A stretch of DNA of 46,223 nucleotides, taken from positions 1 to 46,223 of IMG/VR virus record IMGVR_UViG_3300017613_000353. One strand, given 5' to 3'. This stretch comes from a virus. Each line of letters opens with the position of its first letter. Positions within the stretch are counted from its first letter, which is position 1. The position numbers and the translations under genes are program-made. The notes beneath the pieces were generated by a model, which was not told the DNA's origin, ran no database searches, and saw only the letters and a list, made by a program, of their open reading frames with translations. Shown one piece after another: positions 12,946 to 44,287 of this stretch.

Positions 12946-13130
12946 TGACTCACTATCAGGGTAGTGAAGAGATGGCCGACCAGACCGTCACCAATGCGCT
13001 TTGGACTATTGCGGCTGATCAAATGTCAACCAGACACGATCCCCCCATGAGTGCTGATTTATATTTACACATGAGGGGTATTCGAACACTAAATGAGCAA
13101 AACAATTATATATTCGGGGAGAGAGAATAG
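12945..13130 (+). CDS. small protein, 61 aa
   Basis: ATG overlaps the preceding TAA (TAATG). The frame could also begin at the internal ATG at 12972. The product is polar, starts MTHYQGSEE, and has two Trp/Tyr-containing helical stretches. Its TAG overlaps the GTG start of the next gene. A short linker gene between two tail proteins could encode a chaperone or a small structural piece. Family unknown. Confidence 0.5.
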   Translation: MTHYQGSEEMADQTVTNALWTIAADQMSTRHDPPMSADLYLHMRGIRTLNEQNNYIFGERE

Positions 13131-13975
13131 TGAGTCATTATAAGGCCAAGATACTTGACTTTTATTACCATATCCCCGTCTTGAAGATGTATGATCAACC
13201 ATACCATCTTCACATTGCGGAAGTGCCAAGAACTGTCTACCCTTTCTGCGATGCGGATGACAACTATCATTTGCATGAAGGTGAGCAGGTAGCACTTATT
13301 TATCCGTATGCTATCGCAGCAGATACTTATCACCTGCTCGTGTCTGATACGGCAGTTCTTGATCTTGCGAACTGGATTTTCCCGGCAGAGACTTATCATG
13401 TTAATGCCCCGGACAACGTAACCCTTGACTATATTTTCCTTGATGTTGTCAATGATACTTATCACGATCAGTTCGTTGATAATATAATCACTTCAGAGAT
13501 TCAAGTTTTAACGGTTCAAAGTTCATATCACACTCATTATGCACCATACTATTTTAGATTTTATGTACCAAGTGTTCAGATCAATGCTTCGTTTAGCATT
13601 CCGTTCCCAACATTCTCGACAAAGTTCGGAATGCAAGCAAATAACGATGTACCGTCCATTGTGGTAAGTGGAACAATCTGGACGCAGAACAACCTGACTA
13701 TCGACTACAATATTCCGATGGCTGTAATCGCTGGTGACTTCTCCCATGCAACTAATTTAACCGGGGATTTTAATATACCATTCATAACGGGGGCTGGAGC
13801 ATTTCAAACATCAGGTAATTTGACAGGAGACTTTGATATCCCATTCATTACAATTGAATCAGTAATAGGGGAAAACAATGTCCTGTCTGGAAGTTTCACG
13901 ATACCGTTTATAATTGTTTCTGGCAAGACTTCACATGCCAGAGAGGAAATCATTCTGAAACACTCAAGGTGGTAA
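13130..13975 (+). CDS. short paralogue of the adhesin, HxH-repeat protein, 281 aa
   Basis: It starts at a GTG overlapping the upstream TAG. The N-terminal half holds six YHxH-type repeats (YHLHIAE, YHLHEGE, YHLLVSD, YHVNAPD, YHDQFVD, YHTHYAP). The C-terminal half holds beta repeats with NIPF/DIPF/TIPF cores and ends IILKHSRW, like the 1099-residue adhesin. It lacks the discoidin-like domains. It most likely arose by duplication and loss of the glycan-binding parts, and may fill the same attachment site or cap it. Confidence 0.65.
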   Translation: MSHYKAKILDFYYHIPVLKMYDQPYHLHIAEVPRTVYPFCDADDNYHLHEGEQVALIYPYAIAADTYHLLVSDTAVLDLANWIFPAETYHVNAPDNVTLDYIFLDVVNDTYHDQFVDNIITSEIQVLTVQSSYHTHYAPYYFRFYVPSVQINASFSIPFPTFSTKFGMQANNDVPSIVVSGTIWTQNNLTIDYNIPMAVIAGDFSHATNLTGDFNIPFITGAGAFQTSGNLTGDFDIPFITIESVIGENNVLSGSFTIPFIIVSGKTSHAREEIILKHSRW

Positions 13976-25445: not shown

Positions 25446-26011
25446 TAGTTAAGCCGGGAGATATATTCTTCTGTCAGTCTTCCTCATTACTGGGGAAGAC
25501 TATTCAATTTCTGAGCCGGGGCAAATACAACCATACGGGAATATTTGTTTTCCAGAATTCGCTAAGATGGGGACGATCTATCGAAGCGCTGTGGAACGGA
25601 GTAGTAAGCCATTCTATTTGGGACTACTACTCCGGTCGGTCAGTAAAGATTGAAATCTGGAGACCATTAAACATCTCAGACCGGGACAGGGTCAAGATCG
25701 CATTCGAGGCTTACAAGGATATCGGTGTAGGATACGGATGGTTTGACCTTACAGCCCAGTTTATGGATGCCCTAATTCCTTTCAATCCGTACATCTTCCG
25801 GCGGCTTGGGAAGTATGGGAAGGAAAGCGTGTGTTCTAATTTTGTGGCAAAGTGGTATCGTTCTGTTGGTCTGTCTTTTGGCCTTGAGCTTAATCAGGTA
25901 CAGCCAGATGATCTCCAGCGATTCTGTGCGGCAACTGAGGGACGGTACTATGAGAAGGTGAGAAAACTTAGCTATTTAATTGATGGAGACTCTGATGCCA
26001 ACGCTTGTTAA
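25442..26011 (+). CDS. permuted NlpC/P60-like (YiiX/YaeF-type) hydrolase
   Basis: The 189-residue protein has the permuted papain-like order: KPGDIFFCQS near the start, a catalytic His in YNHTGIFV (His31), and the catalytic Cys within SVCSNFV (Cys131), preceded by a segment with YGWFDL. Members of this fold cleave peptidoglycan peptides or act on lipids. No signal peptide is present. ATG overlaps the stop of the exported protein; its own end overlaps the giant gene by 17 bases. A peptidase or amidase role is inferred. Confidence 0.7.
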   Translation: MIVKPGDIFFCQSSSLLGKTIQFLSRGKYNHTGIFVFQNSLRWGRSIEALWNGVVSHSIWDYYSGRSVKIEIWRPLNISDRDRVKIAFEAYKDIGVGYGWFDLTAQFMDALIPFNPYIFRRLGKYGKESVCSNFVAKWYRSVGLSFGLELNQVQPDDLQRFCAATEGRYYEKVRKLSYLIDGDSDANAC

Positions 26012-29000
26012 ATGTATAGGTGTTTTAACTGGTAAGGAAAAAGCTGAATGCCTTACCAACGCCAAGAAATTTATGGGGGAAGGTTTCTCTGCTGAAGAAG
26101 AGGTCACGGGAGAAACAAAGGTAAAACTGGGCAAATTTCTTGATCAAGAAATCAAGGGTTTTCAGGAAAGTTCAGAGAAGCTATCTCCTAAAAAGGACAC
26201 TCCGAAAGACAAGATAATTGCCAAGCTCATTGGAAAGCCGAAGCTTCAAATAGAGGGTACCCCTGACCAGCCCTATACGAGAAAGACCGTTCAGCAAGCG
26301 TTTCCGGGGTCGAATGTTACACAACGATCAGATGGGTCAATGGTTGTCAGGCTGCCGAATGGAACAACCATCAACGTCTGGGAAGGAAACATACAGGTAA
26401 CGGACTCTGAGGGTAATAAGAGGGCTGTCCGTGGGGCATGGATCGATCGATATCGGACGATGTGGCTAACCTCTACAGCCGGAACTGATACTGTATTCCA
26501 TGAATCATTCCATGCAGCTTGGGCAATGGCTTTAGATAGAGCCGATAAGGCTGCGCTGATCAAGAAGTATGGCACAGAGGAAGTGGCTGCTAAGGCTTAT
26601 GCCAAATGGAAGGTGAAGAGGCTGGCTCGAAATCCTATCTTCCAAAAAATATTTGACTTCTTTTCCACCATTCGCAAGGCTATGTATCCGGGGTCTCCCG
26701 GTGCGGTCTTTGACCGGATCCATTCCGGGGAAGTCTTCAAGAGACACTCTGCCCTATTATCTGATATCGGCCCTGCTGCTTATGCTCTGGAGCATGATGA
26801 CAAGAAGTGGGAATACGATTACGATAATGTCGAGTTCGGTACCGTTAACAACCGGATAGCGAATGAACTGAATTGGATGGAATTAATGATAGGCAGTTCC
26901 AAACGAGCTATCAGTTTACCGGGGAAAGCGGTAGCAAAGGCAAGCGAAAGAGAAAGCCTGAAAAAGAAGGGTGTTAAGTTCAGGGGCGATCGAAGGATTG
27001 TTAGATCCATCACCGCACATGATCTGGGCAAGGATGTCGATGAGGCCTTACAGTCTGGTCGACTTGCTGAATTGATGGACGAGAAAATCTCTCCAATACA
27101 ATTGGCCGACAAACGTGAACTCAAGGGTAATGAACGGGCACGGTTTATTCGGGAACTGAAAAACCTTCGCAACGATACTGATTATCTTTCCACAAATTCC
27201 AAGACCGGGACTTCATCTAATTTCATCTTAGCGACTTGTCAACCTACCAGCCCATGCAAGCATTGCTACGCAGCCAGAGCCATGTTCAGATGGAGTGCTA
27301 TTCAAAAGGCATGGAAGGATACCATTCGGATATTGACTAACCCAACGGGTTGGGCTGAGAGGGTTTCTGAGGAAGTGAACATCAAGTCAAAGATCGAGAT
27401 GCCTATGGTCAGGATGCTGGGATCTGGAGACCTTACTTTTAAAGAGCAGGTCACAGCGTTCAACCACTTGGCTACCCTGATCGACCGGCCGATCCATGTC
27501 TTCAGTCGGCACCATGACAATCTTGAGAAGCTGAAGTCTCAGCCTAAATCTCCATTCGTTAAGATGGGTTCGATCGATGCACAGCTATACGAGACCTACG
27601 GTCACAAGTTCTTGACAGAGAACTTGAAGAAGCGTGGCATCATCAATGCTTTCCTACATACCGATGCATCTGAATACAAAGCAATGGACAAGCTGTACAA
27701 AGATAAATCGCTGGGGTTAGTGTTATCTGCATCTCATAAAATTCATAAACAATTAGCGAATCATAATTTTGGTCTATCTCAAGGTTCCTGTCCGTGTGAT
27801 GCGGATGAGCGCAGCCTTTACGGATCATGCATAGAATGTGCTTTTTCTGAGTCTGGCTGCTTCATGGCTGTCGCTGATTTGGGCTACGATATCGATGGAA
27901 AAATCTGGAAAGCAAGTGATATGAAAGCTCCAAAGCTTTACTACTTTACGGAGTTTATTGATCGTAAACCCGTGGATCTTATGAGTAAAGCTGAGTATGA
28001 AAAAGCAAAGGGGATGAAGTCTTTACGCAAGGATAAGAAGAGAAGAATGTTCGACTACGAGGGAGCTACCCTTGGCAAGGCTCGTGGATACTTTACTACT
28101 TTCGATCAATTAGTGTACAAGTCTATCAAAAATATGCAGTTGCGAGTTGACACTTATCTGAAAGGTTTCAAGGCTGCTGCATGGAAAAGGTATAAGAAGG
28201 ATCACCCGAATGCTGTTAGAAAGTCTGTTTCCAGAAAGATTAGTGCTATTGCCAAAAAGGATTACAAAAAATGGTTGAAGGGTGGGAAGAAAACTCCCTT
28301 TCCGGGTGAGAAAAAATCTATCAAGCTTTCATCTGTTATCCCTGACGAGTTGGAATCGACTGACCTTGTATACTCAGACGAGATAATTAATGATGATACC
28401 GTTACCATTGATACGGTTGAGAAGGCTGAACTGTATATTGAAAAGCTTAGAGCGATCGGTGCGAAAGCCAAGACTGGTAACTTCATGCTGAAAGGTGGGC
28501 CTATCCAAGATCCTGTCTATGTAAAGGACTGGAAGATATTAAGCAAGGAAGAACAGGCACAGCAAAAGTTAAATGCAAAGATCACAGAACAAAAAATCAA
28601 GTCGGCCGAATCCTCAAGGAACCAGATCCCTGCTTCATTTAAAAGGGTTGACTGGAAGCTGGGCAGTACGAATATCGATATTGGTGGGGGCAAGTATGAC
28701 AAGGCTACCGATTATCTCAAGGGCAAGGGTGTTACGAACCTTGTCTACGACCCCTTCAATCGATCCGAAGAATTTAATTACGAAATTATCCGGCAGCTTT
28801 CCATGGGGCCGGTTGATACTGCGACTGCAGCCAATGTTTTGAATGTTATTTCAGAAAAGGCACATCGAGTCAATGTCGTGCGTCAAGCTGCCAAGGCAAT
28901 CAAGGCTGATGGTGTTGCTTACTTCCAGATCCATGAGGGAGATGCCGATGGTAATGGCAGGGTAACCAAGGTTAAGGACGGGAAAGACATGGTATGGCAG

Positions 29001-32000
29001 AATCATCAGCCTACCAAGTGGTACATCGATGAGGTCAAGGAATACTTCAAGACTGTGAAAGTCGCTAACAAAACCATCACGGCCACTAATCCTATCAAAG
29101 ATAACTCCATGGCAACATGGGAAGTCAATGGGATGCCGCAGTATTCGATTACACAGGTAAAGGAAGACCCTGTCATTCTGCCGCCTGATCTGGCCGAATT
29201 GGAAGAGCCGTTTGATCTCTACTCTGGAACTGATCTTGTAGAAGCAATAAAATATGCTCAAGCATTAGAGTTGAAGCTGAGAGCATATGACCTTGCAACT
29301 CCAAAAGATGACTTCGTTGAATACTACAGGGATGAAACTGAAGAGGAGTTCCACGGTGTCGCAGATAACTCCATTGAATTGATTAATGGAATTTATGACC
29401 ATTGGCTTGAGAGACACAGGGGTGGCGAAGGTTGGGCAAACCAGATGTTCGATATCGATGGAGAGCAGGGTATATACAATAAACCAAGTGAAGCATTTAC
29501 AAATGGCGTAGTCGGCAAGATGGATACCGGAAGCTGGTCGTTCGATGTGGAACATGAAATCCTTCAAGCAGTTGAGGCAGAACATGGGATGCCAGAGATG
29601 CCACGAACCGTAGAAGGTGTACTCAAAGAACTTGATGAAGAGTACGGGGAAGACATTGATGAGTTGAAACAGCAGCTTGAAGATGGAGAGATCGAGGACT
29701 ACAATCTCGATGAGATGCTGCACGATCGTAGGGTTGAAGATTATCAATATGCTGATAAAATGATATATGGTGGGGAAAGCGGTGCAGAGTTGGGCGAAAT
29801 ATTGGATCAACAAGGATGGGACTCTCCTATCGGAGATACCATTCTTGAAGAATTGCAACTTAGCGGATATGAGGCATGGAGAGCAAATTGGGGATCAGTA
29901 TTAAAACAGACCGAAGATCGTATAGAAGCACAGCGCAAAAAGTTGGACGAGGCTGTGACACCGGCAGAGAAGCTGTCTGCTATTACGTTTGCCCTAAATG
30001 AAGAACACGTTTATGGCACGATGTCTGAGCATATGGACATAAGTGATACAGAGCTTGATGAGCTTTCCAATATGGGCGAGAATATCAAGGACTTCTCCAT
30101 GTTACTGCGGCGTAACTACCGGCCCGGAGCAATTCAATACAGCCTTGCCAACCCTTGGGATAAAGAAGGTTGGGTTGTCCGTACTGAGGGTGTAAGCGAC
30201 AAGTCTTTCAGACAGGTTGATGAAACAATCGCTGTAACAAGGGAAAATTTTGTTTACAGGGGGATGACTGAGGCTGAATTTAAAAATACTGTGGGAAAAA
30301 ACAAGGGGGTTGAATCTCGCAAGGACTTTTCTTTCGGAAAAGAAGGAACAAGTTTTGGAGAGGATTTTCAGACTGCTGAAAGTTATGTCAATTATGGCAG
30401 GGATGATCCACGGGAAACAGGGAAGCCCACATATCTCGTAGAAGTAGAAAAGGGTGAGAATTTAAAAAGGAATCGTCAGGGATATTATGAGGCAGAAGAC
30501 GCAATCCCCTCTTCCCAAATTAGCAGGGTGTGGAAAATGGAAGCAAGCGGCAGGGATGTCGTTGCTACACCAATACAGCCTCAGTACGGTCTCGCTTCGC
30601 AAGAGGTGATCCGCAGCTTGAAGACCGCAGACTTGCTGAAACATGATCGCCTAAAGAGTGCCAAAATCCATAAGACTCCAGACAACAACCTGCGAGTCAC
30701 CTTTCCTAATGGTAGGGGTTTTACGATCTATCAGGTAAACCACATTACCAAGGACAAGGCTGCCTTTGAAGCTGGCTATGGTGAAGCAAGTATGGAAACT
30801 GGCGAAGCGATTGCTGGTGAATACTGGCACGAGAAAGAGTCTTTGAAGCTCTCTCGCTATGCCGGGGTTTATACGATCGACCATGAGTTGATGCATTTTC
30901 TTGAACGGTCAGGTATGCTGAACCGTGCTGAGATCGCCGCTATTAACCGGGAGCTTGACAAGCAAGGCAAGGATAGGACAGAGGAAGAACGAGCCAAGTG
31001 GGTAGAGCGTGAGATGGCTAAGAGGGACATGGAGAGGCTCGAACCTAAGTCCATGGCAGAACGTGTGCTGAAAAGTATTAAGGACTTTATCGATACCATG
31101 CTGAACGCTTTTGGCAAAGCTACGCCTGAGAATGTTCTGCGACAGATGGAGTCTGGGAAAATCTTCGAGCGCAAAGCTACCGACAAGCTGTCCCATGAAA
31201 TTCAATACTCTAAATTGGCAGAGGCTTGGTACTCTCAGATGGAGCAGTTTCTTGGTGGTGACAAAGGGCTGCCGGGGAAAAGTACGCCTCAAGCGATGCT
31301 GCAAGTGATTGACAAGTTCGCCACTCCCCCGGTTGAAATCACGGACGAGATCAGCAGGTTGGACAAAATCCATCAGTCTCATCCCAACGCCTTTACTAAA
31401 GCTGAGTTAAAGAAAGCCCGGAAAAAGGCTGGCAAATATAAAGGTCATTTCAAAAGAGAGGAACTTGACTGGTCTGGGCTAAGGGATGAACTGGAAGAAA
31501 AAGCAAGAGTTAAAAAATGGCGATCAACAAAAGCTGGCAATCAATGGATTGTGCAGTTAGATGGTTCAAGCGATGATCTGACTGGTGGAAAAAGGTATTA
31601 TATGTTTGATGAGGAGTTTGGGATGCAAGAAAACAAAACTCCTTCTTTTCAAACATTAGAGGCAGCCATGCATTTTGCAGCGGAAGTCTCTGCTGAACGC
31701 AAGGGTGAGAAGGATGCACCAAGGCCTGATAGTGCTTATGTTGATTTTCAACAATTGCCAACCGACAAAATAACCAAGAAAGAAATCCTTGAATATCTGT
31801 CTGACAATATAATGTTCGTTGAAGAGATCATTAAATATCCTTCTGGTCATCCGAAGGCGAAGGCTGGAGAAACATTGGATGAAGGAGAAGATAGTGAATA
31901 TGATATTATATGGCACGATACAGTAGAAGTGATGGGTAGGCCCATGACGTGGGGTGATACTGAAGCAGAGGGTGTGATCGATTGGCAAAGGGATCTACCT

Positions 32001-35000
32001 GCTCTATCTTGGTTTGCTGATTCCGATCCCGATCAGCTAATAGCAGATAATCCTTCCAAGCACTTTACAGAAAAAGATGTTGAGCAGCTAAGATTTGCTC
32101 AAAAGCTGGGCGAGAAGAGAGGTCGTGATAAGATCGAGCGTGAGTTCGGTGAGTTCGCTCAACCTTCATGGCGGACAATTCTTCAGGAAACACAGAAAAT
32201 ACTTAGCAAAGGGGCAGTCTATCATGCTTGGCTGCCGTCAGGAACATGGGAAATAAAACCATCCGGTGAGATGTTTCCAAACGGTAGACAACCCGTGGAA
32301 CTGTTCCATAATGGTACTGTAGTGGAAGAGTATGACTCAGCAGAGATAGCCAAGGTTGAATCACAGGAATTAACAGGAGAACCCTTTGTGCGACCCGTAC
32401 CAGAAGAAGTAAAAGACACGAGAGTCAAGCACAACATGACATCGAGAAGGCTCGAAGGTAAAAGCAAGGGGTATCGTGAGATGGTGTTTCGGATACCTGC
32501 TTTGACTGAAAAGTGGGAGTTAGGATTTGTTGAGCCAGTCCATTATAACGAAACCAACATTGTTGTCTTCGTTAGATTCGATGAACGACAGCTACTGGAT
32601 GGAAGCAGAGTTCTTTATATCGATGAGATTCAAAGCGATCTGCATCAGAGGGGCAGAAAGAAGGGATATAAAGGAGTGCCGATGCAGAAAGGCTTTAAGG
32701 CCACCACAATGCTTCCCGGTGGAATTGAGCTTTCCGGCATTGGAAAGACTGAGGAAAAAGCTATCGAGTCTGCGAACCTACAGTTACGAGCTGGGGGTAA
32801 AGATCCCATTGATGCCGGGAAATATACTGTCGTACCCAACATGGTACGCAATCATCAAGACCATCTTTCTGAAAGAGAATCTGTACCCAATGCCCCCCAC
32901 AAAAAAGAGTGGCCGTTACTGGCAATGAAACGCATGGTGCGGTGGGCAGCAGAGAATGGATATGACAAATTGGCATGGAGTTCGGCTAAAATCCAGAATG
33001 AACGATGGGGCTTAGATAAGCACATCGATCAATTATACTGGGAAAGAACCAAGACTACAAGCAAGGGTCGGGGAGAACATTACAGATATACTATTGTTGG
33101 TTCAAAACACGATAGGCAAATCGTAGAAAAAGATAATCTAACCGAAGATGATCTTGAAGCGCATGTCGGAAAGGAACTTACTGAAAAGATTCTTGCTGGG
33201 GTAGGCTCACAACCGGAAGGTGGCCCTGACATGGGTTCATTGGACAACCTCGATCTGAAGGTCAAAGGCTTGGGAATGATCGGCTTCTATGATCGGATGC
33301 TGCCTAAAATGATGAAGAGCTTCTTCGGCAAGAAGGCATGGGGCAAGGCAGAAATAGAAGTTGTAACACTTAACGAGAGGCCACCAGTAAATAAGAAAAA
33401 ATACAAGCGTGATACCGAAGTGACGATAGCAATTTTGGATGATGACGGGGCACCCAGAATGGTAACAATTCCGGCGTATTCAACAAGTCTCCCCGGTATT
33501 GTTGTCACTCGATTTAAGGATCCACTCATTCAGGACGGAGCAGTATCTCTTACTATTACTCATCAGCCAAGTGGGCTGGCTATAGTTCCTCATGGTTTTA
33601 ATAAGACCATTGCAGAGGCTCAAGAAATGGTCGACAGAATTGGTGAAAGGACAGATGTAGACTGGACTGTGTCTGAAGGGGAGTTAGTTGCAATGATAAC
33701 GGCAAAAACTCTCGTGGGTGAGCTGCTTAGAAATACCGTAAATGAAATTAAAATGGCAAAGACTAAAGGGAAAAAGTATGCACCGGAAGATGTCTGGGCT
33801 ATCTCTATCAACAAGACAATGCGTGACAAGGCCAAGTCAGAGGGTATGCCTCAGTATGCTACTGCTCAAGCGTCTGCTGCTGTGAGAGGGCTGACCACAA
33901 AAATTACCAACCCTATCTCTGAATCTGAATTCTTCAAACAGAAGATGCATGACTGGGTGGACAAAAACCTTGCCATCAAAGAGATCCAAGACTTTATCGG
34001 TGGGGTCAAGGAAAGACTCAATGTCTTCATGCAAGAGACTCAGCGGCCAAAGGTTACGGCATATCGAACAGAGAAGTTCTATGACGAGATGGTTACCCCT
34101 ATAATCGAGGGTGCTGCCAAGGCCAAGCTGAAGCTATCAGAGATCGAGGAGCTTGCCCATGCACTCCATGCTGAAGAAGCCAATAAAGCATTGCGTGAGG
34201 CCGCTGCTCTGGAACAGGTTAATGATATTATCGACATGCCCAAGACGGTTGGTGTTACACCGGCAATGAAAAATGGGCTGCGTGATGAACTTGAGAATGT
34301 CGATAGGATGGGGACAGGCCCAGCCGGGAATCTCAGGGTGCTGGAAAACTTCCTTGTTAAACATGGGGATCTCGTTCCCGAACTGCGAGATTACTGGACG
34401 GTCTTCAGGGATGAAGCGGCTGGTATGACCGATAAGGAAGCCAAGCAGATAATTAATAAATGGCAAGGTAATGCCAAAAAAGCCCAGATATACGACTTAG
34501 TCGGCAAGATAAGTGACATTAACGATCGGAAGTTGGGACTGCTTTTTATGAGTGGTCAGATCAACGAGGAAGAGTTCAAGGCGTATTCAGGCAAGTATAA
34601 AAATTACGTTCCTCTTTATAGAGAAGGATTCGAGGGGGAACCTATTTCCAGCGCTGGCAGAGGCCTCTCTGCTCCGGGCAAGCCTGTCAAGGCTCGTGGT
34701 GGATCTCTGCGGAAAGTTACGGACATCTTAGCCAATACAATAAAAAATTATGAGATGGCAATCATCCGTTCTGAGAAAGCCCGATCTGCTGAAATGCTGC
34801 TGGGCATGGTCAGGGAGAATCCAAAGCCGGGTTTCTGGAAAGTAACCAAAAGCAAAAAAGCTCCGTACTTCGATAGCATGGGCAACCTGCGGCACTATCC
34901 CACCATGAAGGTAGGACTAAACGAAATGAATGTAAGGGTTAATGGAGAGAACTTCGTTATCCAAGTCGATCGAAATAACAAGACCGCTTTGAGAATGATA

Positions 35001-36596
35001 GAAACTCTCAGGGGAGAAGGTGTGCAGTCTGGGCCTTTGATCAATGCATTATCCAAGGTCAACCGCTATTTGTCTGCAATCAATACTATGTACGCACCTG
35101 AGTTTATTCTATCGAACTTTTTCCGTGATATTCAAACAGGCAGTATCAACATAAAAGACTCAGGCTTGAATACAACAGCCATGCTGAAGAAGGTCGGCCA
35201 GTCAGTCAGAACCATTGCAGGGATAGAATCCGGTAAAGGTAATGTCTCTCAAGCAGAGCAAGACCTTTATCGCCGCTACCGTCAGGCTGGTGGAAAGATT
35301 TCTTGGATGGACGTACACCAGACAGCCGAATCGGTTGCAAAGAAAATCGAGGCTGAATACCAGTATGCAGCCGGTAACCGGCCAGCAAGAAATACTCTGA
35401 GAAAATGGAACAAGTTCTGGCAGAGTATGAATACATCGATTGAAAATGGTGCGAGGTTTGCTGCGTTCAAACTTGCGATTGAAGCTGGAAAAAGCGATAA
35501 AGAAGCTGCAGTTATTGCTTCTGACCTGACAGTCGACTTTACAAGGAAGGGTGCAAAGGGACAAGTCCTCAATTCGCTCTACCTCTTTGCCAATGCTGGC
35601 ATACAGGGCAGCTTCCGAATGTTCCGGGCGCTGAAAAACAAACGGGTCAGACATGCTGCCGGTGGAATCGTTATGTTGGGCTTTACTGTCGGTGCTTGGA
35701 ATGCATTAAACGGAGATGATGATGACATCGAGGATTATTTGAAGGAACGCAACATAGTTATCCGCATTCCCGATTCAGACAAGATGATCAAAATCCCATT
35801 GCCTTGGGGTTTCAATGTCTTCTTCAATATGGGTGACGAGGCGGCCAAGGCTGTGTTCAAAGAGAACTACGATCCTTTGAATGGTGCTGCGAGAATGGTG
35901 TCCGTAATGGGCAATGCATTTAACCCATTACAATCAGGCACCGTGCTTCAGACCTTGCTACCCACAATAGCAGATCCTTTTGCTATGGTAGGAGAAAACA
36001 AAAATTGGTTCGGCGGCTCATTAATGCCAGAGAGAAATATATTCGCAAAGGTTCCAAAACCAGACTCGCAGAGGTTTTTCCGGTCAGCAAGCTCCCCATC
36101 AAAATGGGTTGCTGCGTCTTTGAACTCCATGACCGGGGGTGATGAGATCGAGAGAGGTGGAATTGATGTCAGCCCTGAGACCCTCGATATGGTAATTGAT
36201 CAAGTTGGTGGGTCTGCTTTCCGGTTCATTTCTGACTTGACATTGATGCCGGGACGTATTAAGAGAGACGAGGTTAAAGTTCATACCATCCCATTCCTTC
36301 GCAGGGTGGCTGCGGAGAAGTCTGAATATGTGGATAGAAAAAAATATTTTAAGGCGAGAGAGGAAATCAATATTGCAAAAGAACAGCTTAAATTGTATCC
36401 TGAAATGCGCCGGGAGAAAGCACACATCTTGCGGTTGGATTCATCCCTGAGACAATCTGAGAAGATGCTGAGGGTACTGAGAAAGCGCCTGAAGGGTACG
36501 CAAGACAGGGAAGAGGAACGTGCGATTTTAGACCGAATGAATGTAGTCTACCAGAATTTTATGATACGCTACGACCGTGTAGCAGAGGGGGAATAA
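25995..36596 (+). CDS. giant polyvalent protein, 3533 aa
   Basis: The open frame reaches back to TTG 25980, but ATG 25995 has GGAG at correct spacing. Domains in order: zincin-like HESFH (about 169-173); a Cys-cluster domain (C415, C421, C424 and a second cluster about 598-628) resembling phage Gp88-type proteins; a methyltransferase-like fold with IDIGGG (about 893); an ADP-ribosyltransferase-like region (YRGM, about 1419-1526); and a second zincin HELMH (about 1630-1634). Then comes a conserved polyvalent domain with EIQSD..RKKGY (about 2209), AENGYDKLAW (about 2310) and GFYDRMLP (about 2430). An LPD38-like C-terminal region follows (about 3146-3290), then a coiled-coil end. Such proteins are thought to travel with the DNA and blunt host defences. 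Confidence 0.85.
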   Translation: MPTLVKCIGVLTGKEKAECLTNAKKFMGEGFSAEEEVTGETKVKLGKFLDQEIKGFQESSEKLSPKKDTPKDKIIAKLIGKPKLQIEGTPDQPYTRKTVQQAFPGSNVTQRSDGSMVVRLPNGTTINVWEGNIQVTDSEGNKRAVRGAWIDRYRTMWLTSTAGTDTVFHESFHAAWAMALDRADKAALIKKYGTEEVAAKAYAKWKVKRLARNPIFQKIFDFFSTIRKAMYPGSPGAVFDRIHSGEVFKRHSALLSDIGPAAYALEHDDKKWEYDYDNVEFGTVNNRIANELNWMELMIGSSKRAISLPGKAVAKASERESLKKKGVKFRGDRRIVRSITAHDLGKDVDEALQSGRLAELMDEKISPIQLADKRELKGNERARFIRELKNLRNDTDYLSTNSKTGTSSNFILATCQPTSPCKHCYAARAMFRWSAIQKAWKDTIRILTNPTGWAERVSEEVNIKSKIEMPMVRMLGSGDLTFKEQVTAFNHLATLIDRPIHVFSRHHDNLEKLKSQPKSPFVKMGSIDAQLYETYGHKFLTENLKKRGIINAFLHTDASEYKAMDKLYKDKSLGLVLSASHKIHKQLANHNFGLSQGSCPCDADERSLYGSCIECAFSESGCFMAVADLGYDIDGKIWKASDMKAPKLYYFTEFIDRKPVDLMSKAEYEKAKGMKSLRKDKKRRMFDYEGATLGKARGYFTTFDQLVYKSIKNMQLRVDTYLKGFKAAAWKRYKKDHPNAVRKSVSRKISAIAKKDYKKWLKGGKKTPFPGEKKSIKLSSVIPDELESTDLVYSDEIINDDTVTIDTVEKAELYIEKLRAIGAKAKTGNFMLKGGPIQDPVYVKDWKILSKEEQAQQKLNAKITEQKIKSAESSRNQIPASFKRVDWKLGSTNIDIGGGKYDKATDYLKGKGVTNLVYDPFNRSEEFNYEIIRQLSMGPVDTATAANVLNVISEKAHRVNVVRQAAKAIKADGVAYFQIHEGDADGNGRVTKVKDGKDMVWQNHQPTKWYIDEVKEYFKTVKVANKTITATNPIKDNSMATWEVNGMPQYSITQVKEDPVILPPDLAELEEPFDLYSGTDLVEAIKYAQALELKLRAYDLATPKDDFVEYYRDETEEEFHGVADNSIELINGIYDHWLERHRGGEGWANQMFDIDGEQGIYNKPSEAFTNGVVGKMDTGSWSFDVEHEILQAVEAEHGMPEMPRTVEGVLKELDEEYGEDIDELKQQLEDGEIEDYNLDEMLHDRRVEDYQYADKMIYGGESGAELGEILDQQGWDSPIGDTILEELQLSGYEAWRANWGSVLKQTEDRIEAQRKKLDEAVTPAEKLSAITFALNEEHVYGTMSEHMDISDTELDELSNMGENIKDFSMLLRRNYRPGAIQYSLANPWDKEGWVVRTEGVSDKSFRQVDETIAVTRENFVYRGMTEAEFKNTVGKNKGVESRKDFSFGKEGTSFGEDFQTAESYVNYGRDDPRETGKPTYLVEVEKGENLKRNRQGYYEAEDAIPSSQISRVWKMEASGRDVVATPIQPQYGLASQEVIRSLKTADLLKHDRLKSAKIHKTPDNNLRVTFPNGRGFTIYQVNHITKDKAAFEAGYGEASMETGEAIAGEYWHEKESLKLSRYAGVYTIDHELMHFLERSGMLNRAEIAAINRELDKQGKDRTEEERAKWVEREMAKRDMERLEPKSMAERVLKSIKDFIDTMLNAFGKATPENVLRQMESGKIFERKATDKLSHEIQYSKLAEAWYSQMEQFLGGDKGLPGKSTPQAMLQVIDKFATPPVEITDEISRLDKIHQSHPNAFTKAELKKARKKAGKYKGHFKREELDWSGLRDELEEKARVKKWRSTKAGNQWIVQLDGSSDDLTGGKRYYMFDEEFGMQENKTPSFQTLEAAMHFAAEVSAERKGEKDAPRPDSAYVDFQQLPTDKITKKEILEYLSDNIMFVEEIIKYPSGHPKAKAGETLDEGEDSEYDIIWHDTVEVMGRPMTWGDTEAEGVIDWQRDLPALSWFADSDPDQLIADNPSKHFTEKDVEQLRFAQKLGEKRGRDKIEREFGEFAQPSWRTILQETQKILSKGAVYHAWLPSGTWEIKPSGEMFPNGRQPVELFHNGTVVEEYDSAEIAKVESQELTGEPFVRPVPEEVKDTRVKHNMTSRRLEGKSKGYREMVFRIPALTEKWELGFVEPVHYNETNIVVFVRFDERQLLDGSRVLYIDEIQSDLHQRGRKKGYKGVPMQKGFKATTMLPGGIELSGIGKTEEKAIESANLQLRAGGKDPIDAGKYTVVPNMVRNHQDHLSERESVPNAPHKKEWPLLAMKRMVRWAAENGYDKLAWSSAKIQNERWGLDKHIDQLYWERTKTTSKGRGEHYRYTIVGSKHDRQIVEKDNLTEDDLEAHVGKELTEKILAGVGSQPEGGPDMGSLDNLDLKVKGLGMIGFYDRMLPKMMKSFFGKKAWGKAEIEVVTLNERPPVNKKKYKRDTEVTIAILDDDGAPRMVTIPAYSTSLPGIVVTRFKDPLIQDGAVSLTITHQPSGLAIVPHGFNKTIAEAQEMVDRIGERTDVDWTVSEGELVAMITAKTLVGELLRNTVNEIKMAKTKGKKYAPEDVWAISINKTMRDKAKSEGMPQYATAQASAAVRGLTTKITNPISESEFFKQKMHDWVDKNLAIKEIQDFIGGVKERLNVFMQETQRPKVTAYRTEKFYDEMVTPIIEGAAKAKLKLSEIEELAHALHAEEANKALREAAALEQVNDIIDMPKTVGVTPAMKNGLRDELENVDRMGTGPAGNLRVLENFLVKHGDLVPELRDYWTVFRDEAAGMTDKEAKQIINKWQGNAKKAQIYDLVGKISDINDRKLGLLFMSGQINEEEFKAYSGKYKNYVPLYREGFEGEPISSAGRGLSAPGKPVKARGGSLRKVTDILANTIKNYEMAIIRSEKARSAEMLLGMVRENPKPGFWKVTKSKKAPYFDSMGNLRHYPTMKVGLNEMNVRVNGENFVIQVDRNNKTALRMIETLRGEGVQSGPLINALSKVNRYLSAINTMYAPEFILSNFFRDIQTGSINIKDSGLNTTAMLKKVGQSVRTIAGIESGKGNVSQAEQDLYRRYRQAGGKISWMDVHQTAESVAKKIEAEYQYAAGNRPARNTLRKWNKFWQSMNTSIENGARFAAFKLAIEAGKSDKEAAVIASDLTVDFTRKGAKGQVLNSLYLFANAGIQGSFRMFRALKNKRVRHAAGGIVMLGFTVGAWNALNGDDDDIEDYLKERNIVIRIPDSDKMIKIPLPWGFNVFFNMGDEAAKAVFKENYDPLNGAARMVSVMGNAFNPLQSGTVLQTLLPTIADPFAMVGENKNWFGGSLMPERNIFAKVPKPDSQRFFRSASSPSKWVAASLNSMTGGDEIERGGIDVSPETLDMVIDQVGGSAFRFISDLTLMPGRIKRDEVKVHTIPFLRRVAAEKSEYVDRKKYFKAREEINIAKEQLKLYPEMRREKAHILRLDSSLRQSEKMLRVLRKRLKGTQDREEERAILDRMNVVYQNFMIRYDRVAEGE

Positions 36597-38235: not shown

Positions 38236-38264
38236 TTGACAAATCTTTCCAAATATGAGACAAT
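38236..38264 (+). promoter_or_regulatory. sigma-70-type promoter for the replication module
   Basis: A perfect -35 box TTGACA (38236-38241) and a -10 box GACAAT (38259-38264, four of six consensus bases) are spaced by exactly 17 bases. It follows directly after a terminator and precedes the small genes and origin region. This would allow early transcription by the host polymerase. Confidence 0.75.
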
Positions 38265-38790: not shown

Positions 38791-38970
38791 ATGTATGTTA
38801 CTGAAAAACAAATGATGGAAATCGAAATGGCGCTACTTGGGCTGGCCGCTTTTGGGGAACCGGCAGCAGACGCTTTGCAAGACATCGGATACACAGCGAC
38901 AAGGGGTGAGCTTCTGAAGCGAGTCGAGACGGCTAACGAAGTTCTGGAAAAGATCAACGAACTGTATTAG
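38791..38970 (+). CDS. small helical protein, 59 aa
   Basis: The frame starts at ATG 38791 after GGGAGAGAAATC and encodes a 59-residue protein made of amphipathic helices (EKQMMEIEMALLGLAAF, GELLKRVETANEVLEKINEL). It ends six bases before the first DnaA box of the origin candidate. No family is recognised; a regulatory or antirepressor-like role would be speculation. Confidence 0.55.
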   Translation: MYVTEKQMMEIEMALLGLAAFGEPAADALQDIGYTATRGELLKRVETANEVLEKINELY

Positions 38971-39190
38971 ATTCTACTTGTGGATAATTCTCGCTGTTTA
39001 GTTGTTGTAATTCAATCCTATGGTGTTTTTCTATGTTATCGCTGACATTAGTCTGTAAATATTCAATAGAAAGACGGACAAAGTTATTAACCGGCTCAAA
39101 TCACGGACTTATGATTGTGACTAAACGCTGGCAAGCTATGAGATTGTTGATTGATTCGGTTAATTTGGAATTATCCACAAGTTGAATCGG
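38971..39190 (+). other. candidate replication origin bounded by inverted DnaA boxes
   Basis: This non-coding stretch is closed by ACTTGTGGATAATTC (38976-38990) and its exact reverse complement GAATTATCCACAAGT (39168-39182). Each contains TTATCCACA, the consensus DnaA box. Nested shorter inverted pairs occur inside: GTTTAGT (38996-39002) with ACTAAAC (39120-39126), and ATTAACC (39086-39092) with GGTTAAT (39158-39164). It looks AT-rich and has no supportable gene. I infer an origin that uses host DnaA. Confidence 0.6.
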
Positions 39191-39212
39191 GGGAGTTAGA
39201 TGAAAGGTGGCT

Positions 39213-39668
39213 ATGGAGTTGGCATTGATGAGAACGAATGCTGGGTTAATCCCGGCAGATGATGAAACCCTTGAAGAGGTTCAAAAGTTGCCCATGGGAT
39301 CAGTTATCATGGGGAAGTTTTCCAAACCTCGAAACTACCAGTTCCACAGGAAGCTGTTCTCGCTGTTGAGATTGGCTTACGATCATTGGGAACCGGGAGA
39401 GATCAACAATAAATACAAAAAGCCTATGAAAAGTTTTAATAGATTCCGAAAGGATCTGATCATTATGGCTGGATATTACAATGTAGTTATACGGTTGGAT
39501 GGATCTACTCGCATCGAAGCGCAGTCTTTATCTTTTGCCTCGATGTCACCGGAAAAATTTGAGAAGGTCTACTCCGCTATAATCGACAAAGTGCTATCGA
39601 AGGTAATGGTTAACATGCAGAGAGAAGATTTAACTGATCTCGTTGAAAAAGTAATCGGATACGCCTGA
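39213..39668 (+). CDS. DUF1367 family protein, recombination-associated
   Basis: The N-terminus MELALMRTNAGLIPADDE, followed by NYQFHRKLFSLLRLAYDHWEP, the FNRFRKDLIIMAGYY block and the STRIEAQSLSFASMSPEKFEKVYSA block (positions about 46-125), fits the DUF1367 family of lambdoid and related phages. That family is usually encoded beside nin-type recombination genes. I choose ATG 39213 over GTG 39207 because the family starts M(E/Q)LxLxRT. The molecular function is unsettled in the family. It leads the recombination block here. Confidence 0.7.
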   Translation: MELALMRTNAGLIPADDETLEEVQKLPMGSVIMGKFSKPRNYQFHRKLFSLLRLAYDHWEPGEINNKYKKPMKSFNRFRKDLIIMAGYYNVVIRLDGSTRIEAQSLSFASMSPEKFEKVYSAIIDKVLSKVMVNMQREDLTDLVEKVIGYA

Positions 39669-39970
39669 TGAACACACAGCGATATAAAAAAGAGGTTGCT
39701 GATATGGGCTGTATTGTCGATGGGTGTAATGCCCCGGCCGAATTACACCATCCACGGTTCGCTGACATTGGGGGAAGTCAACGAGCAAATGATATGCTGG
39801 TAATACCGCTGTGTGCTTATCACCACAGGCTGGGGGATTTTGGGCAAGCAGTCCATAACGGCAAAGCAACCTTCGAGAAGAACTTTGGAAAAGAATCAGA
39901 ACTACTGGCTAAAACATGGATGAAATTTTTAAGGCGAATTCACTATCTGTGGGGAGCTTACAATGGATGA
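39668..39970 (+). CDS. HNH-like nuclease (Ref/DUF968-type)
   Basis: The 100-residue protein shows C..D.GC.APAELHHPRF, then NDMLVIPLCAYHHRLGDFG and FEKNFG. This is the compact HNH fold with Cys/His zinc ligands seen in phage Ref/NinG-like and DUF968 proteins. These are thought to cut DNA during recombination. ATG overlaps the upstream TGA. Located next to DUF1367 and upstream of the recombinase, as in many phage recombination cassettes. Confidence 0.7.
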   Translation: MNTQRYKKEVADMGCIVDGCNAPAELHHPRFADIGGSQRANDMLVIPLCAYHHRLGDFGQAVHNGKATFEKNFGKESELLAKTWMKFLRRIHYLWGAYNG

Positions 39971-40208
39971 GTTTCTTAAAGAACAAATGAAGAAGAACAA
40001 GAGTGTGGCCGTTGACTACCTGAAAAATGTAGCCCTTCCAAAATGGGAAGCTGAGTATCGCCGGGGCAAGAAACTTGCCTTGCTACAGGAAACCCTGCCT
40101 CGTTGCCACAAGGAGGGCGCTTATTGGGACGATATTGATCGGATCGAAAAGGCAACTGGAGAAGCACTCCAAAACAGCAAATGTAAACAGGGGGAACAAT
40201 GGCTCTAA
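39963..40208 (+). CDS. hypothetical protein, 81 aa
   Basis: ATG at 39963 overlaps the end of the HNH gene. The product is polar, Lys-rich and helical (DEFLKEQMKKNKSVAVDYLKN), with a central helix and a Gln/Cys-ending tail. Its end overlaps the recombinase gene by ten bases. Possibly a DNA-binding helper; no family recognised. Confidence 0.6.
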   Translation: MDEFLKEQMKKNKSVAVDYLKNVALPKWEAEYRRGKKLALLQETLPRCHKEGAYWDDIDRIEKATGEALQNSKCKQGEQWL

Positions 40209-41146
40209 AGATTTTTCGAGAAACTGAGGTTTGGACGGTGGATCAATTGGTGATGGTACTTTATAGCGTTCCCGGTCTGGGGAAAACTACTCTTGGCTTT
40301 AGCAGCGAGAAACCGCTACTGTTGGATTTTGACGGGGGTGCATACCGTGCAAATCTGCGAAGTGATGTGGTACGGGTCAAGACATGGGAAGAGGTCAAGA
40401 GCATTACGCCCGATGACCTTGACCCGTATGAAACGATTGTCGTGGATACTGCCGGTCGGGCATTGGATTATCTGACCGCATCCATCATCAAAAACGATTA
40501 CAAAATGGGTAGCGGTGGATCCTTGACTATCCGTGGCTATGGTCAGCTAAAGACGCAGTTCACCGGCTGGCTCAAAGCTCTCAACATTTTGGGCAAGGAC
40601 GTTCTGCTGCTGGCTCATTCGACTGAAGATAAAAACGGTGACGATTTGATCGAGCGATTGGACATCGTTGGTGGGTCGAAAAATGAGATTTACAAAAGCG
40701 CCGATGCAATGGGGAGACTCTCTTTGAAGAGCGGCAAGAGAATCCTGAATTTCTCTCCTACGGATGTGTCCTTCGGAAAAAATCCGGGTAACCTCGCTCC
40801 CCTGCCTGTCCCTGAGATCAATTCTACCGGCACGTTCCTTGCTGGGGTGTTCAGAGATATCAAGGAACACTTGAACGAGATGACAGAGGTACAGAGGGGG
40901 GAACAGGCACAGCTTGAGGGCTGGGTGCAAGTGATAGACGGTCTTGTTACTCCTATGGACTTTACGTCTTTTGTTAAAGACATGCAAACATCCGATAACC
41001 TGTCTGAGAACTTGAAGGTTATGATTAAGGCTGCCTTCGGATCCGCTGTCAAAGAAAGTGGATTCGAGTGGGACAAGAATGCCGGATGCTACAAGGACAA
41101 GGTTGAAATCGTAGAGGATAAATCCAACGAGGGGAGTGCCGAATGA
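40199..41146 (+). CDS. Sak4-like RecA-fold recombinase/ATPase
   Basis: The 315-residue protein has Walker A SVPGLGKT (residues 23-30) and a Walker B-like strand ETIVVDTAGRALDYL (about 80-94), followed by RGYGQLKTQF and VLLLAHSTED. This fits the AAA_24/Sak4 group of phage single-strand annealing or pairing proteins. It would help strand annealing with SSB and the exonuclease encoded downstream. The start codon is supported by GGGGGAACA. Confidence 0.8.
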   Translation: MALKIFRETEVWTVDQLVMVLYSVPGLGKTTLGFSSEKPLLLDFDGGAYRANLRSDVVRVKTWEEVKSITPDDLDPYETIVVDTAGRALDYLTASIIKNDYKMGSGGSLTIRGYGQLKTQFTGWLKALNILGKDVLLLAHSTEDKNGDDLIERLDIVGGSKNEIYKSADAMGRLSLKSGKRILNFSPTDVSFGKNPGNLAPLPVPEINSTGTFLAGVFRDIKEHLNEMTEVQRGEQAQLEGWVQVIDGLVTPMDFTSFVKDMQTSDNLSENLKVMIKAAFGSAVKESGFEWDKNAGCYKDKVEIVEDKSNEGSAE

Positions 41147-41750: not shown

Positions 41751-42035
41751 ATGAATTATCTCGCTACGGCACGAGAAAAGTTTGCGAACTTCCATTTTGA
41801 GAACCCCAACGTGTTCAGGCGGCTCAGAGAGCGCTGCTGGGATTTAAAAGCGGTCGGACACAAAACCTATAGGATTGATCTCCTGATAGGTGAATTGGTC
41901 GTTAAATACGATGAGAGGACGTCTGACAGGAAATTTGGGATCAACAACAATCACAGACCGTACTATGCTCGTTTGCTGAACAAGCAGCCGGGACTGGAAG
42001 GCTTTTTTAAAACAAGGGCAATGACGGGGGAATAA
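41751..42035 (+). CDS. conserved phage protein, 94 aa
   Basis: The protein shows the pattern NPNVFRRLRERCWDLK, then HKTYRIDLLIGELVVKYD, and NNNHRPYYARLLNKQPGLEGFFKTR. I recognise it as a widespread small phage protein, usually found near replication and recombination genes, of unknown role. ATG follows GGAGAAATAATT. The stop overlaps the next start (TAATG). Confidence 0.7.
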   Translation: MNYLATAREKFANFHFENPNVFRRLRERCWDLKAVGHKTYRIDLLIGELVVKYDERTSDRKFGINNNHRPYYARLLNKQPGLEGFFKTRAMTGE

Positions 42036-42880
42036 TGGAATATTTTGAGATTAAAAACTGGAAAAAGTTCCAGATCATCAGACACGACAGACCGTATCGA
42101 TGGATCAAATTGCATCTGACGCTTCTGCAGAATTATGAATTTGATTTGTTGACCGAAGTCCAACAGGCCCACCTGATGAAAATCTGGCTTTTGGCTGGTG
42201 GATTGGCCGGTAAAATTCCCAACGATCCGACATGGGTCGGCCGGAAAATCGGGGCAAAATCGAGGGTCGACCTGAACACGATGGCTGAGGTCGGTTTTTT
42301 GATCCCAATTGACGTTCAGGTGGAAAAAGATAAAAGATGGATATCATTGGAAAAAGAGACCGCCGCACCCCTGCTCGCCAACGTTGCCGCACCCCTGCTC
42401 GCCAACGTGGCGAGCAAGGGGGTCGACACAGAGAAGAGAAGAGAAGAGAAGAGGAGAGTAGAGAAGAGAAGAGAAGATACCCCCTTCTTGTCGGGGACGG
42501 CTGAAAAATCTCCAGAAATTCCATATGAGCAAATCGTGATTGATTTGAATGAAAAAACGGGTAAAAATTTTAACCCTAATGCAAACGATACTCGAAAGCT
42601 GATCAAGGCACGATGGAACGAGGGATTCACTCTTGAAAATTTTATCGCTGTACATGATCTGAAAGTTCAGGAATGGGGAAGCGATCCGAAGATGAAACGA
42701 TATCTTAGGCCAACAACCCTGTATAGCGGCAAATTTGATCGTTACCTACAGGAATCAGGGGGCATTGACCATGACAAGCTTAAAGAGCTTAAAAAGAGTT
42801 TTGCCGACACCGATTACGGGGAAACAGAACTCCCAGAGTGGGCAAAAGACGATGAAGGCAACGACTCCAACCAAGCATGA
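42035..42880 (+). CDS. replisome organizer / replication initiation protein
   Basis: The N-terminal part (about residues 1-110) is a winged-helix-like DNA-binding region (QQAHLMKIWLLAGGLAGKIP). A low-complexity linker follows. The C-terminal part (about 167-255) with IPYEQIVIDLNEKTGKNF, LIKARWNEGFTLENF and KYLRPTTLYSGKFDRYL is the conserved phage replisome domain (Phg_2220_C type). It probably binds the origin and recruits the DnaC-like loader whose gene overlaps it. The linker DNA carries tandem and palindromic repeats. Confidence 0.8.
   Translation: MEYFEIKNWKKFQIIRHDRPYRWIKLHLTLLQNYEFDLLTEVQQAHLMKIWLLAGGLAGKIPNDPTWVGRKIGAKSRVDLNTMAEVGFLIPIDVQVEKDKRWISLEKETAAPLLANVAAPLLANVASKGVDTEKRREEKRRVEKRREDTPFLSGTAEKSPEIPYEQIVIDLNEKTGKNFNPNANDTRKLIKARWNEGFTLENFIAVHDLKVQEWGSDPKMKRYLRPTTLYSGKFDRYLQESGGIDHDKLKELKKSFADTDYGETELPEWAKDDEGNDSNQA
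42362..42408 (+). repeat. two 23-bp tandem units plus a perfect palindrome in the initiator gene
   Basis: Units at 42362-42384 and 42386-42408 are identical over 23 bases and repeat every 24. The second overlaps the palindrome GCTCGCCAACGTGGCGAGC (42397-42415), which can fold to an 8-bp stem with a 3-base loop. In protein it gives a duplicated AAPLLANV. Iterons inside the initiator gene recall the lambda O-gene origin. Confidence 0.7.
42431..42477 (+). repeat. 47-base polypurine tract
   Basis: All bases from 42431 to 42477 are A or G except a T at 42459, mainly as repeats of GAGAA. It encodes the charged linker EKRREEKRRVEKRRED of the replisome organizer. It could melt or form triplex/slipped structure, or may just be a fast-drifting linker. 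Confidence 0.75.
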
Positions 42881-43661
42881 CGTTAATCTTCTTCGGCAAG
42901 CCGACCCAGAAAATCTGGGGAGAAAATTGATTGACTGCAAGAAGCGAGGGCACGGTAATTACACAGCCACAGAGATGGGGGTCGTGCTTGGCAGAACGGT
43001 CTGGACGCAATGCCCGGAATGCGAGAAAGAGGCTGAGAAAAAGAAGGAAGCGGATCAGGCTGCAAAAAGGGAAGAGGATCTAATGAAGAGATTCTCAAGG
43101 GCTGGCATTCCGAAAAGATTTATCGGATCGTCTCTGGATGAATACGAGACAGGCAACCGGGAACAAAAGCTTGCCCTGAAAGTTTGCCAGCAATATGTTG
43201 ACAAGCTGGATGAAATTTATCTCAGGGGAACATCGTTAATCTTCTGCGGCAAGCCCGGAACCGGCAAAACACATCTGGCCTGTGCGATACTGATCGAGGC
43301 GATTAAACGAGGTTTCACGGCAAAATATTCCTCAGTCTACGATTTGGTATCGGATTACAAACGGACGTTTGGTACAGCCTCTGAGGAAACGGAGAGCAGC
43401 ATCCTGACTCGTTACTGTGATCCGGGTTTGCTCATATTGGATGAAGTGGGGGTTCAGTTCGGAACATCTGCTGAATTGGTAATTATCTTCAGGATCCTTA
43501 ACCAGCGCTACAACGCAGTTAGGCCCACGATCCTGATTACAAATCATTCGGAAAAGGATTTGGAGACTTTCATTGGTGAGCAAGTGGTAGACAGGCTCCG
43601 TGATAACAACGGGGCATTGGTCAAATTCATCTGGAATAGCTACCGAAAGGGGGGAAGATAA
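42852..43661 (+). CDS. DnaC-like helicase loader ATPase
   Basis: I choose ATG 42852; the frame is open further upstream, but that overlaps the initiator more deeply. The 269-residue product has a CPEC pair near residue 54, a basic helical part, Walker A GKPGTGKTH and Walker B LLILDEVG, followed by sensor-type ITNHS and an arginine-containing end (VVDRLRDN). This matches DnaC/DnaI family loaders, which place DnaB-type helicase on DNA. No helicase gene lies in this window, so it may load the host helicase. Confidence 0.85.
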   Translation: MKATTPTKHDVNLLRQADPENLGRKLIDCKKRGHGNYTATEMGVVLGRTVWTQCPECEKEAEKKKEADQAAKREEDLMKRFSRAGIPKRFIGSSLDEYETGNREQKLALKVCQQYVDKLDEIYLRGTSLIFCGKPGTGKTHLACAILIEAIKRGFTAKYSSVYDLVSDYKRTFGTASEETESSILTRYCDPGLLILDEVGVQFGTSAELVIIFRILNQRYNAVRPTILITNHSEKDLETFIGEQVVDRLRDNNGALVKFIWNSYRKGGR

Positions 43662-43828
43662 TGTCCGATGATGCACCGTGTGAGGATAAAAACGAAACCC
43701 GTGAAGTCCTCACGCCACCTTGTGAGGATAATTTACCGGCTGGATTCCGGCACAGGAGATCCGGCCTCTCTTACGTTACCGTGCCGGTCGCTCTCACACC
43801 ACCGTGCAGAGATGACCTGCCATTTTGA
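43661..43828 (+). CDS. 55-aa protein with an SSB-like C-terminal tip
   Basis: ATG at 43661 overlaps the upstream TAA and follows GGGGGGAAGATA. The protein has two copies of LTPPC(E/R)D(N/D)LP (residues 17-26 and 45-54) and ends DDLPF. That ending matches the acidic SSB C-terminal tip (DDIPF) which binds many repair and replication enzymes. The next gene encodes an SSB ending DDIPF. I infer a decoy or competitor for SSB-tail binding partners. Too short to place in a known family. Confidence 0.6.
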   Translation: MSDDAPCEDKNETREVLTPPCEDNLPAGFRHRRSGLSYVTVPVALTPPCRDDLPF

Positions 43829-43843
43829 AAAGGAGAAAATGTA

Positions 43844-44287
43844 ATGGGATCAGTTAACAGAGTTATGCTAATCGGGAATTTGGGGAAAGACCCGGAAGTG
43901 ACTTCCCTGCCTGATGGGAAAGCCGTATGCAACTTCTCGATGGCTACGTCCGAATCGTGGAAGGATAAAAACACCGGGGAAAAGAGGGAATCAACGGAAT
44001 GGCACAATTGCAAGTGCTTCGGAAAGCTGGCCGAAATCTGTGGGGAATACCTGCACAAAGGCAAGCAGGTACGGATCGTGGGCAAGAAAAAAACTCGCAG
44101 CTACGAGAAAGACGGCTACACTTTCTATGTGTGTGACGTTGTATTCCACGAGATGCTGATGCTGGGCAACAAGAGCGATTCTCCCCGGCGAGACGCAGAA
44201 GGTTATGGGCCGCCAGAGCCGCAATCATACCAACATCAGGATGCCGTAAGACCCTTGCCCAGTTACGAAGATGACATCCCGTTTTAG
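43844..44287 (+). CDS. ssb: single-stranded DNA-binding protein
   Basis: The 147-residue protein has the OB-fold pattern VNRVMLIGNLGKDPEV, FSMATSESWKD, TEWHNCKCFGKLAEICGEYLHKG and KQVRIVGKKKTRSY (about residues 1-100). A low-complexity linker follows, and the acidic tip YEDDIPF. It coats single strands in replication and recombination. AAAAGGAGAAAATGTA precedes the start. Gene order with Sak4-like, exonuclease and loader genes is typical of phage recombination modules. Confidence 0.95.
   Translation: MGSVNRVMLIGNLGKDPEVTSLPDGKAVCNFSMATSESWKDKNTGEKRESTEWHNCKCFGKLAEICGEYLHKGKQVRIVGKKKTRSYEKDGYTFYVCDVVFHEMLMLGNKSDSPRRDAEGYGPPEPQSYQHQDAVRPLPSYEDDIPF

Follow-up and report, generated by a model that had tools for sequence, protein, structure and literature searches.

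A gap of about 230 bases, located ahead of the recombination and replication genes of this uncultured virus, contains an inverted pair of DnaA boxes. Is this the origin of the phage, opened by the recruitment of host DnaA, as an earlier note on this DNA had proposed, or does replication start elsewhere and the element fulfil another role? The window, meaning the whole stretch of DNA that was analysed, corresponds to a linear virus record from IMG/VR, 46,223 bases long.

The inverted repeat and its DnaA boxes

The exact 15-base arms noticed earlier, ACTTGTGGATAATTC at 38976-38990 and its reverse complement GAATTATCCACAAGT at 39168-39182, are present and extend to 21 bases with one mismatch (GATTCTACTTGTGGATAATTC at 38970-38990 and GAATTATCCACAAGTTGAATC at 39168-39188; 20 of 21 positions complementary). 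The element is composed of the following parts.

38970..38990, minus strand: left arm of the 21-base inverted repeat, with an exact DnaA box, TTATCCACA, on the minus strand at 38979-38987
38991..39167, no strand: spacer of 177 bases between the arms, 64% AT, in the top 0.6% of the window
39168..39188, plus strand: right arm of the inverted repeat, with an exact DnaA box, TTATCCACA, at 39171-39179

This is the top-scoring inverted repeat of the window and was equalled in none of 100 dinucleotide shuffles; at chance level, a score of at least 13 occurs about 0.24 times per dinucleotide shuffle of the window. The first base of the left arm is the G of the TAG stop of the upstream 59-aa ORF, and the end of the right arm, 39188, is directly 5' of a ribosome-binding-like GGGGGAG. 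The AT-richest 60 bases of the spacer (39009-39068) reach 72% AT; intergenic DNA in general may be AT-rich.

The non-coding nature of the region is confirmed. The gap extends from the TAG stop of the 59-aa ORF (38791-38970) to the start region of ninB (39200-39213), and it is taken as non-coding because the codons of the 50-codon ORF inside it (39033-39185) are used as in a wrong frame. The shorter inverted pairs described as nested within the element do exist, but they are weak, at or near chance: three exact stems of at least 7 bases were counted against 0.76 expected (3% of shuffles), and one of at least 8 (17% of shuffles).

Exact copies of TTATCCACA are overrepresented in the window (3 vs. 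0.47 expected, P = 0.006). Two of the three are those of the arms, 192 bp apart, and the third (45369) is located within a coding ORF. The chance of an exact DnaA box in a random 21-mer arm is P ~1.2e-4. Within the element, no further box with at most one mismatch was found, and a single site with two mismatches is present at 39116. The arms match well beyond the boxes: among the 12 remaining positions, 11 are complementary (P ~2e-6). In DNA folding, the arms pair and the DnaA box comes to lie in the stem of a strand hairpin (z -4.4). The near-DnaA boxes of two 16-base repeats, at 43674 and 43716, were not accepted as sites, as the repeats lie within the repeated peptide motif of a 55-aa ORF (43661-43828); it is this PPCEDNLP-like motif that gives near-DnaA boxes in the DNA.

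The window holds a second strong inverted repeat, reached in none of 100 shuffles. Its arms, 12941-12956 and 13127-13142 (TATAATGACTCACTAT), match at 16 of 16 bases and are 170 bases apart, each overlapping the start codon of one of two neighbouring genes (12945 and 13130). The motif itself is nearly palindromic and is possibly a regulatory site.

Gene neighbourhood and probable host

The element had been placed ahead of recombination and replication genes, and the annotation bears this out.

38236..38264, plus strand: possible sigma-70 promoter ahead of the operon containing the element (TTGACA, 17, GACAAT; consensus match only)
38791..38970, plus strand: 59-aa ORF, directly upstream of the element
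39207..39668, plus strand: ninB/orf recombination mediator (phrog_319 5e-41, PF07105), start more likely at ATG 39213
39668..39970, plus strand: HNH endonuclease-like protein (DUF968 / RecA-dependent nuclease)
40199..41146, plus strand: Sak4-like ssDNA annealing ATPase (phrog_124 5e-38, PF13479)
42035..42880, plus strand: replication initiator (Phg_2220_C; phrog_428 5e-31, PF09524 3e-25), carrying a competing origin candidate
42735..43661, plus strand: DnaC/IstB-like helicase loader (phrog_50 8e-73)
43844..44287, plus strand: single-strand DNA-binding protein (phrog_44, PF00436)

The host is probably bacterial, as an amidase endolysin, a DnaC-type loader and a bacterial SSB are encoded, and such a host would be expected to possess DnaA. 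A point against a bacterial host is that Methanosarcina virus MetMV comes first among deposited phages for both the capsid protein and a 3538-aa protein. An archaeal host, considered in view of these matches, was judged unlikely on the basis of the same three genes.

The capsid protein (2436-3425) is 47% identical to that of MetMV, and the replication and lysis genes look bacterial. The resemblance could reflect a structural module common to the host domains, or the host stated for the MetMV record could be doubtful. The 3538-aa protein is very large (25980-36596) and, towards its C-terminus, carries a large polyvalent protein domain, LPD38.

A candidate origin inside the initiator gene

The competing candidate (42362-42477) is found 3.2 kb downstream of the element, in the initiator gene, which adjoins that of the loader.

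42362..42409, plus strand: two tandem, iteron-like 24-bp repeats, GCCGCACCCCTGCTCGCCAACGTT, with an inverted 13-base half copy at 42408-42420
42430..42477, plus strand: 48-base purine-rich tract, (AGAGA)n, beside the iteron-like repeats

Three sequence features of a lambda-type origin are found together here: an initiator gene beside a loader, tandem iteron-like repeats in the linker and a strand-asymmetric tract. As in lambda, DnaA boxes are also present in the replication region. The iterons of lambda are four 19-bp repeats (PMC3985674), in comparison with the two 24-bp repeats of this phage.

Such repeats recur in relatives. The loader gene led to 28 non-redundant viral loci. In 25 of them, the ORF beside the loader contains tandem repeats, against 6 of 313 other ORFs, and the loaders themselves have none. 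A second set of 14 initiator genes, including that of the window, has them mid-gene in 12, with 76 repeat bases per kb vs. 10 outside. In both counts, it should be considered that protein linkers tolerate repeats. A Pfam search with ten of the repeat-bearing ORFs next to a loader identified two Phage_rep_O, one DnaT and one DUF1376, and the other six had no match. Exact DnaA boxes are rare across the 28 loci (2 in 361 kb), which places them outside the conserved module.

Given the tandem repeats in the corresponding gene of 25 of the 28 relatives, 42362-42477 is the likely origin. The main origin of this phage is more likely to reside there, inside the initiator gene, than at the inverted repeat.

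Possible roles of the element

The reading that is tentatively preferred combines a lambda-type origin in the initiator gene with an auxiliary cis element, able to bind DnaA or to form a hairpin, at 38970-38990/39168-39188; the element itself would probably be a helper or control element. The repeat with its boxes, the gap, the order of the genes and the iteron-like repeats, of a kind that recurs in relatives, are observations; that DnaA would bind the element, with what effect, and where replication would start are inferred. The phage initiator would bind the iteron-like repeats, beside the purine tract, and the phage DnaC-type loader would then bring host DnaB to the origin in the initiator gene. 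The auxiliary element would belong to the same operon and act from the gap that precedes ninB. There, host DnaA on the inverted pair of consensus boxes could modulate transcription of the recombination and replication operon. Points against the reading are that the best promoter match is 0.7 kb upstream of the element, that the boxes number only two, and that distant relatives lack the element. Alternatively, when the region is single-stranded, the arms could pair, and a stem with a duplex DnaA box could aid helicase loading, like the A-site of the ABC primosome. This hairpin would account for the 12 matched positions beyond the box in each arm, which the binding of DnaA to duplex DNA alone does not.

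Both variants have counterparts in known systems. In lambda, DnaA protects two box-like sites near pO (PMC3985674), and DnaA binding has been reported as necessary for transcriptional activation of ori-lambda (PMC8203912). Hairpins with a DnaA box load DnaB on ssDNA in vitro (PMC6127211). The A-site of the M13 constructs, like the strand hairpin predicted here, carries its DnaA box in the stem. That site is a single-box hairpin (PMC6127211), in contrast with the present stem, which would close a loop of 177 nt and whose role on ssDNA is putative. The resemblance to lambda also has its limits: two iteron-like repeats are present instead of four. To our knowledge, the DnaA-box-like sites of lambda do not form the ends of a 21-base inverted repeat.

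The extended arms would equally be accounted for by an RNA element, a reading that we regard as unlikely. The arms would form a 21-bp stem in the operon transcript, involved in RNase III processing or in the control of stability or translation, and the DnaA box would be incidental. In agreement with this, the repeat fits exactly between the stop codon of the upstream gene and the ribosome-binding-like GGGGGAG, and the full element folds better than all of 200 shuffles (z -4.3). However, the opposite strand folds about as significantly (z -4.7), and structured RNA beyond the outer stem was rejected, as the interior folds no better than shuffles. The element has no Rfam match, two tRNAs being the only matches of the window, and no homologous element was found for covariation. 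The exact DnaA box would be left unexplained.

That the region 38970-39190 is itself the phage origin, with DnaA on the two inverted boxes opening it and the AT-rich spacer as the unwinding region, is improbable. The exact boxes, the AT-rich and non-coding spacer and the location before the recombination and replication genes all speak for it. Bacterial oriCs, too, can have exact DnaA boxes in inverted orientation, spaced by about 180 bp within non-coding DNA that is rich in AT. When the strict pattern (TTGTGGATAATT, 165-195 bases, AATTATCCACAA) was scanned in ~85,000 species genomes, only two loci were found (L157 and L158; Rickettsia and Heyndrickxia), and both look like chromosomal oriCs, which favours an origin. 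One is just before a dnaA-like gene and the other beside a hemE-like gene, like the oriC of Rickettsia; these genes were identified by reading the translations and by comparison with known oriC contexts. As oriCs are where exact DnaA boxes cluster, these hits allow only a limited inference to a phage origin. Moreover, oriCs have more boxes, and the element lacks a dnaA or hemE context, while its arms match over 21 bases. A looser pattern returned 102 stretches, oriC-like arrays and chance matches included, none of which resembles the element in sequence, and none of the 62 contigs retrieved with a single 15-mer arm has an inverted partner at similar spacing.

A symmetric, origin-like element was encountered in the phage contig L064 (562-847), which shows that such structures exist. 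Like the present one, it is intergenic, with an inverted repeat of 33 bases that contains TTATCCACA, 190 bases apart. Unlike the present one, it has mirrored GGTCAYAG iteron arrays (six per side) and a strongly AT-rich core, and its sequence is unrelated. This phage is unrelated as well, and its element is located between an ORF and a minor tail gene. DnaA boxes were also observed in gaps of two other contigs. An unrelated phage (L202, 7849-7883) has three boxes beside RecE/RecT/SSB genes, together with an AT-rich stretch; this array counts in favour of the preferred, auxiliary reading. A viral contig (L162, 5497-5602) has six exact boxes in direct orientation in a non-coding gap, the first five ~21-23 bases apart.

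Several observations argue against the element as the origin. It has only two boxes, with no ordered array and no iterons, and the phage encodes an initiator and a loader of its own; the initiator gene contains iteron-like repeats, as in 25 of the 28 relatives. The cumulative GC skew goes on rising at 39 kb, without the inflection that had been suggested as a check, although a transcription bias may mask one. NinB, Sak4, the exonuclease, the loader and the gene upstream of the element led to distant relatives only; among those examined, none has a comparable DnaA-box inverted repeat or an exact box upstream of ninB, and the sole exact box around the initiators examined in them belongs to Staphylococcus phage 77. 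For these reasons, the element makes a poor candidate, and the less likely one, for the main origin. The lack of such boxes and of the inverted repeat in distant relatives weakens, but does not refute, a role of the element in the phage's own lineage. The recruitment of host DnaA remains plausible in view of the two perfect boxes, the non-coding location, the probably bacterial host and the oriC-like hits of the strict pattern; it is the designation as the phage origin that is not favoured.

An even less probable reading is a functionless insertion, MITE-like or an inverted duplication by template switching. The 219-base unit with terminal inverted repeats, between a stop codon and a ribosome-binding-like site, has the appearance of such an insertion, and its absence from distant relatives fits. 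However, the flanks show no target-site duplication, and the unit is present as a single copy in the genome. Similar DNA was limited to short weak matches at most in phages and plasmids, and none was found in 398 genomes of one phylum, which is perhaps not that of the host.

Lower still is the probability of a second, DnaA-controlled start or priming site beside the origin in the initiator gene, where the hairpin would let DnaA load the helicase on the displaced strand or would tie lytic replication to the initiation state of the host. Just as doubtful is a pair of asymmetric ~21-bp sites for a phage-encoded regulator, inverted for looping and with a coincidental DnaA box: the arm identity does reach well past the box, but the window has no other good copy of the site, and an exact consensus box would arise by chance with P ~1e-4 per arm.

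Returning to the preferred reading of an auxiliary element beside a lambda-type origin, if DnaA does bind here, this uncultured phage would add to the cases, lambda among them, of host DnaA acting on a phage replication region, with an unusual, hairpin-capable arrangement. Perhaps more useful is a by-product of the comparison: in this large set of phages, the likely origin is marked by tandem repeats within an initiator gene that neighbours a DnaC-type loader, a signal that the sequence itself reveals.
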